DNA of 64,000 nucleotides from Weeksella virosa DSM 16922 (GTDB lineage: Bacteria > Bacteroidota > Bacteroidia > Flavobacteriales > Weeksellaceae), in the NCBI RefSeq assembly GCF_000189415.1, contig NC_015144.1, positions 687,501-751,500 on the forward strand. The letters are read 5' to 3'. Below are positions 28,934 through 37,815 of the stretch, piece after piece; position 1 is the first letter of the stretch, and each line of letters opens with the position of its first letter. Position numbers and translations under genes: made by a program. Under the pieces are notes generated by a model that did no database searches, was not told the origin of the DNA, and was given only the letters and a program-made list of their open reading frames with translations.

Positions 28934-28952
28934 ATTTAAATTAATTCTAAAT
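28934..28952. promoter_or_regulatory. Fur-like 9-1-9 inverted repeat upstream of hmuT
   Basis: ATTTAAATT-A-ATTCTAAAT: the right arm's reverse complement is ATTTAGAAT, so 7 of 9 positions match between arms, and the flanking TTA/TAA continue the symmetry. The 19-base 9-1-9 layout is that of Fur/PerR boxes. It lies upstream of a -7-like GATATTTG at 28980-28987 (one mismatch to TAnnTTTG) and 67 bases before hmuT. Iron control of the heme genes is likely but inferred. Confidence 0.55.
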
Positions 28953-29018
28953 AATATGTGAAATGTAAAATTTTTTTACGATATTTGCTTTTTATTTAGT
29001 CTTATTATAAATAGTAAC

Positions 29019-29894
29019 ATGAAAAAAATAATTTTACTCGGCTGCACTTTGACTTTTATGATAGCGTGCAATTCGGAAACTAAAACAGAGGATACACAAA
29101 AAACAACCATAGAAAAAACAAAATCGATGAATACAGAGCGAATAGTTTCGCTCAACGGATCGGTTACAGAAACCTTGGCACTTCTCGGTAAAGGAGGAAA
29201 CATTGTTGGTGTTGACATCACGAGTACATTTCCGCAAAACATTAAAGAACAGGCAGCAAATCTTGGACATGTATCGAGTATTTCGGCCGAATCGATTCTT
29301 GCCTTGAAACCAACTTTGGTCTATGCAACAAGCAAAGAAATGAAACCAGAATTACAGAAACAATTAGAGCAAGCCAAGGTTACCGTCCGTTTAATCGACC
29401 AGCCAATGGCAGCAGATGAAACCAAAAAAATGATTGCAACGATTGCCACAGATATGCATTCATCTAATTATGAAAAATATCTAACCGAAATAGACAAAAA
29501 AATTCAACAAGTAAAACCCGTAGACCAAAAACCAAAAGTCTTATTTATCTATGCGCGTGGAGCAGGAAATCTCATGATTGCCGGACAGAAAACTCCAATA
29601 GAAAACATAATAGAAATGGCTGGCGGCATCAACGCGGTGAACAACATAGAAGATTATAAACCTTTGACTCCTGAAGCGCTGATTAATGCAAATCCTGACT
29701 ATATCTTACTTTTTGATCGAGGCCTACAAAGTTTAGGTGGCAAAGAAGGGGTACTAAAAATAGAAGGAGTCTCGGCAACCAATGCGGGAAAAAAGATGAA
29801 TATCATTTCTATGGATGGGCAGCTTTTATCAGGATTTGGACCTAGATTAGGCGAGGCTACCTTGCAATTAAATCAGTTATTACAAGGAAAGTAA
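29019..29894 (+). CDS. hmuT: Heme ABC transporter substrate-binding lipoprotein
   Basis: 291 aa. The N-terminus has a signal with a lipobox at about residues 14-17 (MIAC), so the protein is probably a lipoprotein. The body has the class III binding-protein pattern: ERIVSLNGSVTETLALLGKG (about 40-59), GVDITSTFP (about 64-72), SAESILALKPTLVYA (about 89-103), and GPRLGEA near the end. In heme-binding relatives (ShuT, PhuT, HmuT) an axial heme ligand Tyr lies in the TS.YP loop; here that position is Phe71. It probably passes heme to the HmuU permease, whose gene is 27 bases downstream, but the ligand could differ. Confidence 0.85.
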   Translation: MKKIILLGCTLTFMIACNSETKTEDTQKTTIEKTKSMNTERIVSLNGSVTETLALLGKGGNIVGVDITSTFPQNIKEQAANLGHVSSISAESILALKPTLVYATSKEMKPELQKQLEQAKVTVRLIDQPMAADETKKMIATIATDMHSSNYEKYLTEIDKKIQQVKPVDQKPKVLFIYARGAGNLMIAGQKTPIENIIEMAGGINAVNNIEDYKPLTPEALINANPDYILLFDRGLQSLGGKEGVLKIEGVSATNAGKKMNIISMDGQLLSGFGPRLGEATLQLNQLLQGK

Positions 29895-29921
29895 AATCGG
29901 ATAATGGTAATTTAAAGTAAA

Positions 29922-30956
29922 ATGCAGAAAAAGCTAAGGTTTTACATATTTTCTTTTGGTCTGTTCACGATTCTCATCTCTATCACAGCTTTGTTTATTG
30001 GTGTCTATCAATTCAATACCCCAATCACAGAACACTTTAAGAATATTATTCTAATGAAAAAGATTACCGATGAAAGTGATGCTTATGTATTGTTCGATTT
30101 ACGTTTACCCCGAATATTAATGGCGATTTTGGTAGGTAGTGGTTTGGCTGTTACCGGCACCTGTTTACAAGGAATTTTTAAAAATCCATTGGCTTCCCCA
30201 GACCTTATCGGAATTACATCGGGTTCTATTCTATTTGCGGCAATAACGATTGTATTAGGCCATCATTTATACGCCTTTTTACCAAAATTTGTACATTATT
30301 TTCTACTAAGCATCATGGCATTCATTGGTGCTTTGCTTACCATTTGGTTAGTGTATAAAATTTCTACCAAAAACGGACAAACCAATATTTCGTTACTTTT
30401 GCTTTCGGGTGTTGCCATTTCTGCGCTTTGCGGTGCTGGTACAGGTTTACTCACCTATTTATCTACAGAAGAAGAACTAAGAAACCTTACATTTTGGACT
30501 CTCGGAAGTTTAGCAGCGGCTAATTGGTACTCGATCGCAATTCTGAGTACAATTCTATTTTTCAGCTTTCTATTTCTCCTATCAAAAGGCAAAACCCTAA
30601 ATACAATGCTATTAGGAGAAAAAAATGCGACACACATTGGGATTGATATCGAGCAGTCTAAAAAACAAATTATCTTATTTTCTGCTTTGATTGTCGGAAG
30701 CATTGTATCTTTCACCGGTACAATAGGATTTGTTGGTTTAATAATTCCGTACATTTTACGCCTAATATTTCATTCTAATTTCACCTATATGCTACCGTTA
30801 TCTGCAATCTTAGGAGCATCTCTGGTGATTATTGCCGACACATTGAGTAGAACAATTGTAGCACCAGCCGAGATACCGATTGGGATTTTAACCTCGTTGA
30901 TGGGAGCGCCCGTTTTTATTTCTATATTGATACAATACAAAAAAAGCTTATCATGA
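29922..30956 (+). CDS. hmuU: Heme ABC transporter permease (FecCD family)
   Basis: 344 aa with about nine to ten membrane helices, the BtuC/FecCD type. Family marks are DLRLPRILMAILVGSGLAVTG (about 58-78), QGIFKNPLASPDLIGITSG (about 82-100) and FVGLIIPYILRL (about 272-283), the part that contacts the ATPase. The first helix (about 9-29) follows a short basic tail. It overlaps the start of the ATPase gene by four bases (ATGA), and it lies 27 bases after hmuT. Confidence 0.9.
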   Translation: MQKKLRFYIFSFGLFTILISITALFIGVYQFNTPITEHFKNIILMKKITDESDAYVLFDLRLPRILMAILVGSGLAVTGTCLQGIFKNPLASPDLIGITSGSILFAAITIVLGHHLYAFLPKFVHYFLLSIMAFIGALLTIWLVYKISTKNGQTNISLLLLSGVAISALCGAGTGLLTYLSTEEELRNLTFWTLGSLAAANWYSIAILSTILFFSFLFLLSKGKTLNTMLLGEKNATHIGIDIEQSKKQIILFSALIVGSIVSFTGTIGFVGLIIPYILRLIFHSNFTYMLPLSAILGASLVIIADTLSRTIVAPAEIPIGILTSLMGAPVFISILIQYKKSLS

Positions 30957-31726
30957 TTCGTGCAGAACAAATACGTTTTCCCTCCAAAACAGCTGTCATT
31001 CTAAAGAATATAAAATTCCGTGCAGAAAAGGGGAAATTTATTGCGATTATCGGACCGAATGGCGCAGGCAAAAGTTCTTTATTGAATTATTTAGCAAATG
31101 AAATCGATCCGAAGATAAACCGTACGTGTTTCAAAGGAAAAAACTACCGAGAATGGTGCCGAAAAGAATTGGCGTGCCAAAAAGCAAAATTTTCTCAACA
31201 ACAACAAAACGACATCCCTTTGCGAGTAAAAGATATTTTATTAATGGGTCGTTATCCGTATTTTCATTATCAACCCCAAAAAACCGATTGGGAAGCAACA
31301 AAAATATGGATGGAAAAAACAGAAATTTCTCATCTAGAAAACCGTGATTACAATCAACTTTCGGGAGGAGAAAAACAACGTGTTCATTTGGCGAGAATTT
31401 TTGCTCAGGTAGAAAATAAAGCTCAAGAAAAATTAGTATTTTTAGATGAACCCTTGAACAACTTAGACATTGCTCATCAATTCAAAATCTTACAAACAAT
31501 CAAAGATTTTACACAAAATAACAATACGGCAATTACGGTTCTACACGACCTTAATCTTACAGCACAGTTTGCAGATGAAGTAGTATTGATGCAAAACGGA
31601 AAAATAAAAATGTACGATTCGCCGGAAAATGTTTTCCAAGAAAAAATCATTGAAAATGTTTATAAATTTCCATGTAAAATAATTTCTAACCCAATAACCA
31701 ATAGACCCTATATCGTCTTTGGATAA
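30953..31726 (+). CDS. hmuV: Heme ABC transporter ATP-binding protein
   Basis: 257 aa. Walker A is GPNGAGKSS at 34-42, the Q-loop falls near FSQQQQ (about 80-85), the signature LSGGEKQR is at 136-143, Walker B LVFLDE is at 161-166 and the switch His is H198. It powers heme import through HmuU. Its start overlaps hmuU by four bases and hmuS follows after 14 bases. Confidence 0.92.
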   Translation: MIRAEQIRFPSKTAVILKNIKFRAEKGKFIAIIGPNGAGKSSLLNYLANEIDPKINRTCFKGKNYREWCRKELACQKAKFSQQQQNDIPLRVKDILLMGRYPYFHYQPQKTDWEATKIWMEKTEISHLENRDYNQLSGGEKQRVHLARIFAQVENKAQEKLVFLDEPLNNLDIAHQFKILQTIKDFTQNNNTAITVLHDLNLTAQFADEVVLMQNGKIKMYDSPENVFQEKIIENVYKFPCKIISNPITNRPYIVFG

Positions 31727-31740
31727 AAAAATAGAATAGT

Positions 31741-32772
31741 ATGAATTCAACCTTATTACACGAAAAATGGGATTTGCTAAGGAAAGAGCAACCCAATTTA
31801 CGAATCAGAAATGCAGCCAACACGCTCGGAGTAAGCGAAGTAGAACTACTTTGTTTGCAACTAGGAAAAGGAGTTACTCGCCTAGAACCTAAATTTTCTG
31901 ACCTTTTACAAGCTGTAGAATCTCTCGGGAAAGTAATGGCACTTACTCGAAACGACGAAGCTGTACACGAACGAAAAGGTGTTTATCTAAATCCAGATTT
32001 CAGCTCTCCACATGCTCAACTTTTTGTTGGCGAGGATATTGATTTGAGAATTTTTTCTTCATTCTGGCAAAGTGCTTATGCAGTTATTGAACCCACAAAA
32101 AATGGAGACAGAAGGAGTTTACAATTCTTTGGCAAAGATGGATCGGCTGTGCATAAAATATATCTTACCCCACAAAGCAATGTAGTCGCATTTGACTCTT
32201 TGGTAGAGAAATATAAAAATCAGGACCAGAGCTCGGTAGAAAAAATAAATTATCAAGAAGAAATAACTGAAGAAAAAGATGATAAAGAAATCGATGTGGC
32301 TGCTTTTCAGAAAGATTGGCTCGACCTTAAAGATACTCATGATTTTTTTATGATGCTAAAAAAACATGCCGTAAGCAGAACACAAGCTATGCGCTTGGCA
32401 CCGTCGGATTATCATGCGCAAAAAATCGAATCGAATAAAATTGTAGAGGCCCTAGAAAAAGTTGCGAACAATCAGACTCCCATCATGGTTTTCATCGGAA
32501 ACAAAGGAATGATCCAAATTCATACAGGCCCAATAAAGAAATTAATGTGGCATGACCAATGGTACAATATAATGGATGCTGATTTTAATATGCATTTGGC
32601 GATGGACAAAATCGATAGTACTTGGATTGTTCGTAAACCGACCGAAGATGGTGTAGTAACATCGATCGAAGCCTTTAACAAAAAAGGTGAATTGATTGTT
32701 CAGTTTTTCGGAAAAAGAAAACCAGGAGTTCCCGAATTAGAGCAATGGCAACAAGTTATTGCAGAATTGTAA
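31741..32772 (+). CDS. hmuS: Cytoplasmic heme-binding/degrading factor (HemS/HmuS family)
   Basis: 343 aa in two similar halves, the duplicated fold of HemS, ChuS and HmuS. The first half has LRKEQPNLRIRNAANTLGVSE (about 13-33) and the second has WLDLKDTHDFFMMLKKH (about 192-208), where the family's heme-ligand His is found, followed by SRTQAMRLAP and GNKGMIQIHTGPI (about 250-262). Members bind incoming heme and either open the ring or pass it on. It is the last gene of hmuTUVS and ends at a terminator facing the hmuRY unit. Confidence 0.9.
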   Translation: MNSTLLHEKWDLLRKEQPNLRIRNAANTLGVSEVELLCLQLGKGVTRLEPKFSDLLQAVESLGKVMALTRNDEAVHERKGVYLNPDFSSPHAQLFVGEDIDLRIFSSFWQSAYAVIEPTKNGDRRSLQFFGKDGSAVHKIYLTPQSNVVAFDSLVEKYKNQDQSSVEKINYQEEITEEKDDKEIDVAAFQKDWLDLKDTHDFFMMLKKHAVSRTQAMRLAPSDYHAQKIESNKIVEALEKVANNQTPIMVFIGNKGMIQIHTGPIKKLMWHDQWYNIMDADFNMHLAMDKIDSTWIVRKPTEDGVVTSIEAFNKKGELIVQFFGKRKPGVPELEQWQQVIAEL

Positions 32773-32801
32773 GCTCCCTTATTTAATTTATTGTTTTTCT
32801 T

Positions 32802-32838
32802 AACCCGATTCTTATAAGAAAGAATCGGGTTTATTATT
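32802..32838 (+). terminator. Terminator after hmuS
   Basis: Perfect 12-base arms AACCCGATTCTT / AAGAATCGGGTT with a six-base loop, followed by a T-rich stretch. Confidence 0.85.
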
Positions 32839-32861
32839 TTTTCAGTTAGCAAATCACCATA

Positions 32862-32892
32862 CAAAAAAAGGTTGCCTAAAAGACAACCTTCT
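32862..32892 (-). terminator. Terminator after the T9SS HmuY-like gene
   Basis: On the minus strand AAGGTTG / CAACCTT closes a nine-base loop and is followed by seven T's. It lies back to back with the hmuS terminator. Confidence 0.85.
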
Positions 32893-32916
32893 TAAGATAG
32901 ATATAAAATACAGAAA

Positions 32917-34158
32917 TTATCGCAGAGCGATTTTTTTCGATTTTTTGATGCCGTTGCTTTCTATATTCACGATATATATACCAGATCCTAACTTGGATAA
33001 ATTGATTTTTTTGGTCGTAAATTGTGCGCTCGGACGATAACTTTCTTGATGCACTATTTGTCCATTAAGATTGAACACACTAATCAGCATATTTTCGTTG
33101 GTAGAGAATTGTCCATTAAAAACAACCTGAATTGTTTTCGGCTCGCTCTGAATTGTATATACATCAAAGTTGCTGGTTCGGATGTCAGAGATACTTAATG
33201 AGCTGGTAACATCTTCATAATCGAAGGTGATTTTCCCGGTAGAGCTTCCTTCGAAACCAGTAAAATTCAGTCGATATATCCTGTTGGTATTGGTGTTTTT
33301 GATAAAATAGTTTAGGTTGGATAAACTGTAAGTAGACCCGTTAAAGGTTTTCCAATCGTACCCAATCGAATTTATTTCCGCCTTGTATGCATCGTCATCA
33401 CTAGGATTTCCCGCTTCTGTTTTGGCTACTTTCACCAAATCTGATTGTAAAATTCCGGTAACAGGATACATTATAGTCCCACCTTCGTATGGTAGTGGGG
33501 TTTGGTATTTTGTAAACTTCATCTCCCATTTGTCCTGTTCTGCCTCTGCATTTACAATTTGTTTTGTAGACAGATTATAATAGTTGAAAATACGATTTTG
33601 GGATGTATTTTGCTCGATATTTACACGCTCATCGGCAGACCATGTGCCATTTTCCCACTTAGAAAAAGTGAAAGTATAAGTCCCATAAGCCAATTTATCG
33701 ATGCGTAATTTTATATAATCACCGTTATCATACTTCAAAACAAAAATTATTTTACCGTTGACATGATGCGTTACCATGTCATATTCTCCCCAACCGTAGG
33801 TTGCAGAACCATGATTGAAAGCACCTTCGTCCCACTTTTCGACGCTATTATAGAGGGGAACCCAAGTGCTTTCATTGCTTGGTGAGATCGAATTCCAATC
33901 GCTAAAAGAATTAGAAGCTTCGAAAACCTGAATACCTTTTGTATCATTTACTCGAATTCCTAAACCATACATAGATTTTCTAAAAAAAGCTAAATCCCAT
34001 TCTTGTCGATTCACCTCGAATTGTGTCTGATTTTCTAAGCCAAAATATACATCATTTTGATAGGCTTGCCCCATCGAAATTTCACCTTGGATTATTTGAG
34101 CTTGCAAGCTAAGCCCTATCAAAAATGTTGTACTAAATAGAGTAAACTTTTTATTCAT
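32917..34158 (-). CDS. HmuY-like protein with a type IX secretion sorting domain
   Basis: 413 aa. A cleavable signal peptide covers about residues 1-20 (ends SLQAQ). Two HmuY-like modules are suggested by repeated W(D/E)..F segments, WDLAF at 54-58 and WEMKF at 211-215. A His pair is at 131-132 (THHVNG). Residues about 340-413 form a type A T9SS C-terminal domain (VFNLNGQIVHQ ... LGSGIYIVNIESNG..KSKKI), so the protein should be exported through the outer membrane and attached to or released from the surface. HmuY is a heme-binding hemophore in Porphyromonas; that this one binds heme is inferred from its likeness to the upstream lipoprotein and from the locus. Confidence 0.75.
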   Translation of the reverse strand: MNKKFTLFSTTFLIGLSLQAQIIQGEISMGQAYQNDVYFGLENQTQFEVNRQEWDLAFFRKSMYGLGIRVNDTKGIQVFEASNSFSDWNSISPSNESTWVPLYNSVEKWDEGAFNHGSATYGWGEYDMVTHHVNGKIIFVLKYDNGDYIKLRIDKLAYGTYTFTFSKWENGTWSADERVNIEQNTSQNRIFNYYNLSTKQIVNAEAEQDKWEMKFTKYQTPLPYEGGTIMYPVTGILQSDLVKVAKTEAGNPSDDDAYKAEINSIGYDWKTFNGSTYSLSNLNYFIKNTNTNRIYRLNFTGFEGSSTGKITFDYEDVTSSLSISDIRTSNFDVYTIQSEPKTIQVVFNGQFSTNENMLISVFNLNGQIVHQESYRPSAQFTTKKINLSKLGSGIYIVNIESNGIKKSKKIALR

Positions 34159-34203
34159 GATTACAATTTTTATTATTTATTTTTTTGTTTTTAACTATTT
34201 ATA

Positions 34204-35604
34204 TTATGGTATAAGTTGATATTCTAAACGTGGATATCCTCTTTCTCCTGATGTATTTTTTAGGTTGAGCATTCGTAGTTTATAGAAATAACCTTCTGTG
34301 TCTTTTAGGATAAAGAATCGATTTTTGATTACAGTTCCTTCAAAAACATTTCGCCAATTGCTTCCGATAGTTCGTATATCTTTATCGAATTTTGATGCAT
34401 CAATCATCGATTTTGAAAAACTAGAGAAAGTCTGATCCTTGGTTTCGGTCACCATATACACTTCTACGCTACCCAAGCGATTATGAACGATGAAGTCAGA
34501 GTTCCCATACGACCCACTGCCTTCGATGAGCGTGGTAAAAACTGTAAAACCAATATCCCACTTGGTAGATTCTGGTTGAGCTTCTACTAGTTTATGCTCT
34601 TGTAGATTGACAAAGCTAAAATTGGCTCGTGAATTTTTTGAGATTACGATTTCTCGATGAGTTGTTTCATTTAATTTGGCATATTGTAGCAGATAATTTC
34701 CATTTCTTTTCAATACTCTAATTTTCATCCAACCTCTGTGATCTCCTGCGATTGCCACAGAACCTATTGCAGGTGTTATACTCCCTACCTCATAACCTAG
34801 ATTGATTAGATAGACACTATTTTCGTCATCATTATCAGCTATTTCTGCAATGGCGGTTTGGTTTATGTCACCAGAAGGATGATCGATATATGCAGCATTT
34901 TGTGCATCGAAAGTTCCTACAGCAACTTGCGGAAAGAAAATCTTTACTTGATCTTCTGTTACTTGATCTATATCATAAACCAATAACTTTTTCGCTGCCA
35001 TATAAATAGATCCGTTGAGGATGACACGAAATTCATTCCCGGTATAAAAACCAAAATCCCACTGATCTCGTCTAACTTCGAACATTTTCTCTTCACTGAG
35101 GTCGATATACACTTGGTTTGGTTCATTTGGTCCACCAACATTCGGCGCAAGCGTTGCTCCGATTGATGCCTCGAAAGAAATTGTCAATTGCGTATATCCT
35201 TGTATAGAATATGCCTCATCGGATTCGATAGTTTTTATTTTGAATTGAATTCTTTTATCTGCACGATCAAACGGATAAATAAGATTGGTAAAAGAAAAAC
35301 TCAACCGATTAGCATCTTTCTCATAGGGCAAACGAATTTGTTTGTTTTGTGCTTTTGGAGTTGTGGTGTAATCATTGTCATATTCGGCATTTTCATCAAC
35401 TATTTCTATAATTACTACGCCGTTTTGCGATGCAGGTTTAGAGAAGTCCAACTCAATTTTTTGTTCATTTTGGATGTTCGAATAGTTGAGTGATTGATTG
35501 GCAAAAGCAATCACAAATGGCTGAGACAATGGTTGTTCATCGTCTACGCAAGACGAGAAAAATAAAACTGAAAAAAAAGAGAGTATCCAAAAATATTTAG
35601 ACAT
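34204..35604 (-). CDS. HmuY-family lipoprotein with an added N-terminal beta domain
   Basis: 466 aa. The lipobox FSSC places Cys19 as the lipidated residue. Residues about 30-148 look like a Calx-beta type domain (ELDFSKPASQNGVVIIEIVD ... DNDYTT). Two HmuY-like modules follow, with VYIDLSEEKMFEVRRDQWDFGF (about 165-186) and FVNLQEHKLV..QPESTKWDIGF (about 331-353). It is about twice the length of Porphyromonas HmuY. The gene lies two bases after the receptor gene, so it is probably its partner, collecting heme or heme proteins at the surface. Heme ligands cannot be assigned by eye. Confidence 0.75.
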   Translation of the reverse strand: MSKYFWILSFFSVLFFSSCVDDEQPLSQPFVIAFANQSLNYSNIQNEQKIELDFSKPASQNGVVIIEIVDENAEYDNDYTTTPKAQNKQIRLPYEKDANRLSFSFTNLIYPFDRADKRIQFKIKTIESDEAYSIQGYTQLTISFEASIGATLAPNVGGPNEPNQVYIDLSEEKMFEVRRDQWDFGFYTGNEFRVILNGSIYMAAKKLLVYDIDQVTEDQVKIFFPQVAVGTFDAQNAAYIDHPSGDINQTAIAEIADNDDENSVYLINLGYEVGSITPAIGSVAIAGDHRGWMKIRVLKRNGNYLLQYAKLNETTHREIVISKNSRANFSFVNLQEHKLVEAQPESTKWDIGFTVFTTLIEGSGSYGNSDFIVHNRLGSVEVYMVTETKDQTFSSFSKSMIDASKFDKDIRTIGSNWRNVFEGTVIKNRFFILKDTEGYFYKLRMLNLKNTSGERGYPRLEYQLIP

Positions 35605-35606
35605 AA

Positions 35607-37721
35607 TTAATTGTATTTCAGATTATAAAGAAATTTTATAAAATAAGAACGTCCATATCCTAACATCATCCTACTGTTGGCTAACGCATGCCCGTTTGCC
35701 CCTTGTGTCGTATTACGAATGGTTTTTACGTCGAACAAATTTCTTGAACCAAGCACTAATTCTATTCTATTATCGAATAGTCTTTGACGAATAGATGCAT
35801 CCATCCAACTATACGAGTCTTGTACACCTTTCACATACTCTGTTTGCTGATCCAATTGACTTTGTTCTCGAAACAATTCTTGTTTACCATTGTATTTATA
35901 GAAAAAAGAAAAAGTAGTTTTGGTTGATGGTATCAGAAAAGAAGCATTAAGGTTGAAGTTTGTTGAATAAAAATATTTTTCATCAACATTTGCTTCTTCA
36001 GCTAAATTTTGTTTTATACCGGTTAATGAAATTCCTGCGCCGAACTGTAAGGTTTTCCATTTCCAATCCGAACTATAAGTTAGCCCTTGCGTATCATACT
36101 TATCTACATTGATATATTTGTACTTTAGCGGTGATAAACTCAAAGCCATAAGTTCTATTTTATCGCGTAAATGAATTTTCCAGGCAGAAAATTTTTGTTC
36201 ATAAGAAGAGTTTTCCCAATACCATTTTTTTTTCAGATGCAAGAAAAGAGAACTTCCTTTTTCGGGTTTCAAGTCTGGGTTTCCCTGCAAGTCGTGGTTA
36301 ACATCTACAAAGTAAGTAAACAGCTCGTCAAAATCGGGCGTTCTTGGCGATGTTCCAGCAATCACTCTCAACTCAAAATCTTTAGGCAAGAGAATCTTAG
36401 TACTTAAACTTGCCGCGTGCTGGGTATCGAATAAGTTAGAAAGCATGACTCTGTATCCCGGCCGCACAGAGAATTTTGGAGAAAAATTTATTTCGGAAGA
36501 TGCAAAAAAGTCATACGAACTTACCTGACGATCAATCGGATTGGCATAGATATCTTTGCGTTGTGCTGCTTTCCCGAATATTGTATTGATTTCATAACCA
36601 AACTGAAAGTCGAATATCCCTCCCGTCACAACATTGCTAATCGTGGCTTTAGAGTAGATTGTTTCTCGGCTATCGAAGGTAGAAGTGCGCACATCGTTTT
36701 CGGTCTGTGAAGCAATTTGGTATTGATAGTTTTTTTGTTGCCTTCGTTGGTTTTGGTAGGACAAACTCGCATCGTATTGCCACTCATCCGAAATATTTCC
36801 ATTTGCATTGAATAAATTGTACCAACGTTGCGTCTTGAATTCGGTGTCTTCTGCAAGAGCGTTATTGGTTGCTGTTGAAGGCTGTTCGTGCAGTTGTACT
36901 ACTGGATTATAATAGTTTGTTTTTTCATTGAAGTATTCGAGTCGATAAAAAAACTGATGAGCTGCCGTAGCATACCTCATCAAAAACTTACTGCCATTTT
37001 GTTCTTTTGGTAGCCAAGAGTAACCTCTTCCCCCATTGTTTTCGGCATGATGTTTTCCTTTTTTATCATCCCAAAAACCTTTAAAATCATTTCGATTGAA
37101 ATTAAATTCCGTATACCATCTAGGACTGATGGTGTGTCCAATTTTCAGTGATTGTATATGTCGACCTTTATTTTTCAGATTATATTCATCGTTCACAGTT
37201 TCTTCTTGTACAAATGCAGAAATGTCGACCTTACCTCTCGCATTCTTTCGGGTAATAATATTGATAACTCCTGCCAATGCATTGGCACCATAATCCACTC
37301 CCATAGCACCTTCTACAATTTCTATCTGTAGAATATCATCTAAATGAAGCTGTGTCAAATCGGTATGATTTCCTAAACCTTCGTCGTTGAGCAGTGGAAT
37401 ATTATCGACCAATACTTTGAAATACTGCCCACCCATCCCGAACATGCTTACCGATGATTTCCCAGTATTTGGACTACTTATCACGGTGAGATTGAGTGTT
37501 TGATTGAGCACATCGGCCAAGTTATTAGCAGCTAAACGATCAATCACATCTCGGTTGAGTACTTTTACTTCATAGATCGATTTCTTTACCGATTGTTTGT
37601 TGTATTGTCCAGACACGATGATTTGTTCTAATTCTATTGGGTTAGAGATAATAGAATCTTTGGTCTGAGCAAAAGTAGCCTGAAACACAACTCCCGATAT
37701 AAACAAAAACAGAAACCTCAT
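35607..37721 (-). CDS. hmuR: TonB-dependent heme receptor, HmuR-like
   Basis: 704 aa. A signal peptide (about 1-19, ends TFAQ) is followed by a short N-terminal region, the plug domain (about 45-158: NNLADVLNQTLNLTV, GMGGQYFKVLVDNIPLL, EIVEGAMGVDYGANALAGVINI) and a 22-strand type barrel. Heme receptors carry FRAP and NPNL boxes with a conserved His between; here the matching loop reads PRTP (459-462), His476 and NPDL (481-484). A TonB box cannot be named. With the two downstream HmuY-like genes it forms the outer membrane part of the heme system. No carboxypeptidase-like N-terminal extension is present, so it is not a SusC-type protein. Confidence 0.85.
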   Translation of the reverse strand: MRFLFLFISGVVFQATFAQTKDSIISNPIELEQIIVSGQYNKQSVKKSIYEVKVLNRDVIDRLAANNLADVLNQTLNLTVISSPNTGKSSVSMFGMGGQYFKVLVDNIPLLNDEGLGNHTDLTQLHLDDILQIEIVEGAMGVDYGANALAGVINIITRKNARGKVDISAFVQEETVNDEYNLKNKGRHIQSLKIGHTISPRWYTEFNFNRNDFKGFWDDKKGKHHAENNGGRGYSWLPKEQNGSKFLMRYATAAHQFFYRLEYFNEKTNYYNPVVQLHEQPSTATNNALAEDTEFKTQRWYNLFNANGNISDEWQYDASLSYQNQRRQQKNYQYQIASQTENDVRTSTFDSRETIYSKATISNVVTGGIFDFQFGYEINTIFGKAAQRKDIYANPIDRQVSSYDFFASSEINFSPKFSVRPGYRVMLSNLFDTQHAASLSTKILLPKDFELRVIAGTSPRTPDFDELFTYFVDVNHDLQGNPDLKPEKGSSLFLHLKKKWYWENSSYEQKFSAWKIHLRDKIELMALSLSPLKYKYINVDKYDTQGLTYSSDWKWKTLQFGAGISLTGIKQNLAEEANVDEKYFYSTNFNLNASFLIPSTKTTFSFFYKYNGKQELFREQSQLDQQTEYVKGVQDSYSWMDASIRQRLFDNRIELVLGSRNLFDVKTIRNTTQGANGHALANSRMMLGYGRSYFIKFLYNLKYN

Positions 37722-37757
37722 GCGTAATTATTTATAATTAGTCTACATAAATTTTAA

Positions 37758-37787
37758 CAAATATAATATTATTTTTAATCATTCCAA
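37758..37787 (-). promoter_or_regulatory. Promoter of the hmuR-hmuY unit with an AT palindrome
   Basis: On the minus strand TTG (37787-37785), a 19-base spacer and TATATTTG (37765-37758) match the Bacteroidota consensus; the -7 element ends 36 bases before the start codon. A perfect palindrome ATAATATTAT (37763-37772) sits on the edge of the -7 element, where a repressor could act. Confidence 0.65.
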
Positions 37788-37815
37788 ATAAAAATTACGA
37801 AAAATGTTTTTTTAG

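Follow-up and report, generated by a model that had tools for sequence, protein, structure and literature searches.

The window analysed here, a 64-kb stretch of the Weeksella virosa genome (one contig of 2,272,954 bases), contains two convergent gene units between 28.9 and 37.8 kb, with hmuTUV and hemS on the plus strand and a receptor gene followed by two further genes, A and B, on the minus strand. We interpret these units, with a probability of about 0.6, as an iron-repressed heme-acquisition locus in which two different surface HmuY-fold proteins, A and B, serve one receptor. Heme binding by A or B, their surface location, control by Fur itself and the order of hand-over are what we infer for this system. 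The locus represents a real and widespread variant of the Hmu system that has received little study. Work on HmuY, a hemophore-like protein well known from oral pathogens, has dealt almost exclusively with a small lipoprotein. A doubled relative with a tag for the type IX secretion system (T9SS) was found in about a third of the sampled Bacteroidia genomes, usually beside a receptor and a doubled lipoprotein.

Gene layout, receptor and promoter sites

The plus-strand unit begins with an hmuT-like gene for a periplasmic binding lipoprotein (29019..29894; Peripla_BP_2, 104.6 bits, with an IsdE-related match below cut-off). It is followed by an hmuU-like FecCD permease gene (29922..30956; FecCD, 284.6 bits), an hmuV-like ATPase gene (30953..31726) that scored 263.2 bits with NF010068 (heme ABC transporter ATP-binding protein), just over the cut-off of 261, and the gene of a HemS/ChuX-type cytoplasmic heme-handling protein (31741..32772; PF05171, 263.2 bits in two stretches). 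We take the name hmuS to denote this HemS/ChuX protein, as in Yersinia. An intrinsic-terminator-like hairpin with a 12-pair stem and a T-rich tail lies 3' of hemS on the plus strand (32802..32831). On the minus strand, an HmuR-like TonB-dependent receptor of 704 aa (35607..37721; Plug, 70.4 bits) is separated by 2 nt from A (34204..35604), which in turn is separated by 45 nt from B (32917..34158). Pfam domains over cut-off in the locus included HemS, ChuX, FecCD, Peripla_BP_2 and Plug. The closest named relatives found were Weeksella massiliensis and Vaginella massiliensis, and the gene order of the entire block is identical in both. A sequence-only reading of the window had described hmuTUVS facing hmuR and two HmuY-like genes, and the positions of the open reading frames bear out this order, the strands and the coordinates.

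The receptor carries the box PRTPDFDELFTYFVDVNHDLQGNPDLKPE. This box is of the FRAP...His...NPNL type, a heme-receptor motif discussed in PMC9331221, and its His was kept in all aligned receptors linked to B. The heme-specific NCBIfam models scored the receptor far under their cut-offs; TIGR01785 (TonB-hemin) reached 64.8 bits against a cut-off of 316.85. Judged by its sequence, the protein is thus placed outside TIGR01785, among TonB receptors that have a heme-receptor box. The Riemerella receptor RhuR (L104:4893-6950) is about 20% identical to the Weeksella receptor and is without the conserved NH...GN box, which suggests that two receptor lineages serve HmuY proteins.

The assignment to heme uptake made by the sequence-only reading stands, based on the HemS/ChuX domain, the heme ABC ATPase above cut-off, the HmuY folds described below and the His box of the receptor. 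The same features argue against import of another tetrapyrrole, such as cobalamin or porphyrin precursors, in which case the heme label would be wrong. FecCD/BtuC-type permeases are broad and the best NCBIfam scores of the receptor include a B12 receptor model, below cut-off, but we consider this explanation very improbable.

The whole 64 kb was scanned against the Riemerella consensus for Fur sites, ATTTAGAATTATTCTAAAT (PMC5609570), with scores out of 19 positions. The best match in the window, ATTTAAATTAATTCTAAAT (17/19), lies upstream of hmuT on the plus strand (28934..28952), and the span that the sequence-only reading had assigned to the locus (28934-37787) starts at exactly the first position of this site. 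A second Fur-box-like site upstream of hmuT (28994..29012, plus strand) scored 16/19. Upstream of the receptor operon, two sites on the minus strand scored 16/19 (37730..37748) and 15/19 (37771..37789). These were the only four windows with at least 15/19 in the 64 kb, all at the hmuT and receptor promoters. Three of them reach at least 16/19, where 0.23 would be expected, and all three lie in the two promoters. Sites equivalent to the one at 28934 and to the one at 37730 are present in W. massiliensis and Vaginella. As a control, the Riemerella locus was scanned, and its best site lies 78 nt from rhuR, the distance reported for the Fur box tested there (PMC11967795). A sigma-70 scan is uninformative for Flavobacteriia; a Flavobacterial -7 element (TAnnTTTG), TATATTTG, lies upstream of the receptor operon (37758..37765, minus strand), at -44 from the start codon. 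The Fur-box-like sites at both promoters speak against the lack of any link to iron, and iron-type regulation of the locus is supported to that extent.

Folds, modules and export signals of A and B

The HmuY family (PF14064, cut-off 27) matched A, a protein of 466 aa, with 98.2 bits and B, a protein of 413 aa, with 43.7 bits, in two stretches each. The sequence-only reading had seen a W(D/E)..F module twice in each protein, about 157-167 residues apart, and the motifs are indeed found at residues 182 and 349 of A (167 apart) and at residues 54 and 211 of B (157 apart). Family alignments were cut into modules and the profiles were compared HMM-HMM. The first modules of A and B matched each other with 98.0% (E 2.6e-13) and the second modules with 99.2% (E 8e-20), while the first module of A matched the second module of A with 29% only. 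Comparison of the modules to single-domain HmuY gave 87.9-97.6%, with 96.8% for the second module of A and 97.6% for the first module of B. These matches identify the repeats as homologous domains, not chance motifs. The modules of A and B pair by position, indicating that duplication came first and the split into A and B followed. On this profile evidence, the doubling of the module is older than the divergence of the two proteins.

We corroborated the family assignment with AlphaFold2 models, which were built from alignments of 25 (A) and 35 (B) sequences and had mean pLDDT values of 88.1 and 87.8. For A, the best VIA rows were HmuY-family chains with Z 13.6-15.8, led by HmuY (3h8t; Z 15.8, rmsd 2.4, 136 aligned). 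For B, they were again HmuY-family chains (Z 10.7-13.8), with PinO at the top (Z 13.8, rmsd 3.0, 126 aligned), and the model compared to PinO, HmuY and Tfo gave Z 11.7-13.8. Thus the predicted folds of both proteins match solved HmuY structures. Profiles and folds were required for this result: single-sequence phmmer searches of the PDB with A and B returned nothing useful, and for B, HmuY chains ranked high with VIA but not with Foldseek alone.

In A, the lipobox Cys19 is followed by a Calx-beta-fold domain (residues 28-145) and the HmuY body (145-466). An extra Calx-beta-like domain had been proposed before, and this holds at the level of the predicted fold (Foldseek 3.6e-5; VIA to Calx CBD1, Z 13.1), but Pfam gives no Calx-beta match. 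The domain occurs in some genera only, and A of Chryseobacterium-like relatives (361-373 aa) is without it. B consists of a signal peptide, which was called by eye, modules at about 22-172 and 173-318, the first of which contains the motif GWGEYDMVTH with His131, and a sorting domain at 325-413.

The two HmuY relatives carry different export signals, as the sequence-only reading had stated. Cys19 of A is invariant in the 25-sequence alignment, and the acidic residues VDDE that follow it presumably fit a surface-export signal. The tail of B scored 37.4 bits with PF18962 (Por_Secre_tail; cut-off 27) and 34.3 bits with TIGR04183 (cut-off 23), and residues 325-413 match T9SS sorting domains in structure comparison (mirolase CTD, VIA Z 10.9). 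The genome encodes SprA, a T9SS core gene product (2048 bits), and contains 37 sorting-tail matches, of which 32 are above the family cut-off; by these sequence matches, a T9SS is present in this genome.

The axial heme ligands of the HmuY family are His/His in HmuY itself (His134/His166) and Met/Met in Tfo and others. Of the 35 aligned sequences, 34 keep the motif GWGxYx4H of B, which provides His131, as do 18 of 20 from distant loci. When module 1 of B was aligned to HmuY, His131 fell on His166, but the probability of this alignment was very low. We tentatively regard it as the sequence counterpart of His166 and a candidate iron ligand. No second conserved ligand was found in B, the other ligand of HmuY being without a counterpart in the alignment. 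Neither His134 nor His166 is kept by alignment in the second module of A; Met202 of A is conserved in 24 of 25 aligned sequences, but lies elsewhere in the sequence.

That the two ligands of HmuY are not both conserved in B would suit a protein that carries no heme and instead grips hemoglobin or another hemoprotein, from which A or the receptor strips the heme, comparable to HxuA with hemopexin. Two modules would offer a large surface for such a grip, and the HmuY-like RhuA of Riemerella may bind heme but fails to extract it from hemoglobin (PMC11967795). However, the conservation of GWGxYx4H, with its His tentatively aligned to His166, favours a direct ligand, and we find this role of B distinctly unlikely.

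Distribution of the cassette

HmuY matches were found in 117 of the 197 genomes of the family. About 100 of these 117 have the long form (frames of at least 350 aa). Full-length B is present in 77 of the 197, always together with an HmuY gene (77/77), and is missing from 40 of the HmuY-positive genomes. B lies within 12 kb of the HmuY gene in 73 of the 77 genomes, in 12 cases adjacent on the same strand and in 61 on the opposite strand. In the opposite-strand loci examined in full, the receptor is located between B and the HmuY gene. In a sample of 395 genomes across Bacteroidia, B was detected in 137 (counted at E < 1e-50), from at least 34 families. Twenty Bacteroidia B loci were examined in full. 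A related receptor was present in 19 of them, and in 18 it was accompanied by another doubled HmuY-like protein, which in most cases has a lipobox. The doubling had been presented as an oddity, set against characterised HmuY proteins, and this was not confirmed, given the frequency of the long form in the family and the recurrence of cassettes of B, receptor and doubled A across Bacteroidia. Neither the doubling nor the use of two export routes is peculiar to this genome: both are real and belong to a common, conserved design. No description of doubled HmuY proteins was found in the open-access literature. If B is the heme-capturing stage, its many carriers among Bacteroidia acquire heme by a route on which there has been hardly any experimental work, and His131, the motif GWGxYx4H and the gene set of the cassette offer concrete handles on heme capture of the B type. 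One family genome shows an expansion, with three B-type genes and eight HmuY matches (G002, L098). In another locus (L100:5541-12001), a B-type gene adjoins apparent heme-biosynthesis genes, which were recognised by eye.

The absence of B from 40 HmuY-positive genomes implies that A and the receptor can work without B. Together with the HmuY fold common to both proteins, and with a Flavobacterium columnare mutant in which loss of a T9SS-type HmuY had no effect on growth (PMC9618737), this speaks for A and B as parallel, partly redundant heme binders that dock independently on the receptor and suit different heme sources, with no relay between them. That B is tightly linked to both the receptor and A suggests a shared pathway, yet this fits relay and parallel use alike. 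We judge independent docking to be somewhat unlikely.

A broader and unlikely proposal is that the pair of a lipoprotein and a T9SS-delivered two-module HmuY protein would be an ancient, class-wide heme-relay machine of Bacteroidia, that single-module HmuY would be its reduced derivative and that both modules would form one composite heme site. The composite site is suggested by the superposition of one HmuY molecule across both repeats in each model. The solved single-module HmuY of 182 residues aligns across both modules, from the beginning of the first to the end of the second, with ranges of 145-466 in A and 19-320 in B that are known by their ends only. The models hint at strand exchange between the modules in A and B.

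Proposed relay and known systems

In the favoured reading of an iron-repressed locus with two surface proteins and one receptor, Fur would release both convergent units when iron is scarce. B would be exported by the type IX system, shed its sorting tail and stay on or leave the surface. It would be the outermost capturer of heme or hemoprotein, with His131 as candidate iron ligand. A, as a surface lipoprotein, would keep heme beside the receptor, which would import it using TonB energy. HmuTUV would move heme across the inner membrane into the cytoplasm, where the HemS-type protein would take it over. By analogy, such a two-stage relay, which the sequence-only reading had suggested as surface capture handing heme to the receptor, is plausible: it fits the genetics and the precedent of RhuH, RhuA and RhuR in Riemerella (PMC11967795).

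In Riemerella anatipestifer, a member of the same family, a Fur-controlled receptor is combined with an HmuY-like protein and a separately secreted haemophore. The haemophore RhuH extracts heme from hemoglobin, RhuA binds but cannot extract it, and RhuR imports it (PMC11967795). This is the logic proposed for the Weeksella locus. In contrast to A and B, RhuA is a single-module protein of 210 aa (locus L104), and RhuH (8XJC) belongs to DUF6607/PF20311 and is unrelated to B. In Porphyromonas gingivalis, HmuY (3h8t/6ewm) likewise combines the HmuY fold with a neighbouring TonB heme receptor, HmuR, and is a lipoprotein as A is. However, it has a single module and about half the size, without a T9SS-tagged partner or a Calx-beta-fold domain, and its ligands His134/His166 are not both kept in Weeksella A and B. 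Flavobacterium psychrophilum HfpR-HfpY resembles the Weeksella locus in having an iron-controlled receptor and an HmuY-family heme-binding protein, but it has one HmuY protein and a DoxX-family gene in between, and no T9SS partner is described (PMC9331221).

The closest described equivalent of B, by description, is C6N29_01035 of F. columnare, with an HmuY domain and a Por_Secre_tail, which was reported as T9SS-secreted and whose deletion mutant grew normally; doubling, a partner lipoprotein and receptor linkage are absent from its description (PMC9618737). POREN0001_0445 of Porphyromonas endodontalis is likened to B, also by description, as a T9SS-tagged protein from an hmu operon; its published description goes no further than a beta-barrel-like protein whose role is unknown (PMC11208336). 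For neither of these published equivalents of B, both single proteins, has a role been demonstrated (PMC9618737, PMC11208336).

PF20311 was not found in the Weeksella genome by profile search; the same model finds 16 of the 197 family genomes above cut-off, eight of which also have B. By analogy, B may fill the outer role of RhuH where RhuH is missing. Orthology of B and RhuH was considered as well, since in Chryseobacterium-like genomes B lies upstream of the receptor in divergent orientation, like RhuH in Riemerella. It was rejected: the Riemerella gene (L104, 7073-7969) matches 8XJC (E 9e-202) and PF20311, whereas B matches only the HmuY and tail models. In several genomes (L124, L125, L091, L099), a RhuH-family gene is the immediate neighbour of a B-type gene, which gives the cassette an optional fourth member. 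PF20311/DUF6607 is still labelled as of unknown function, and the membership of RhuH gives this family a likely role.
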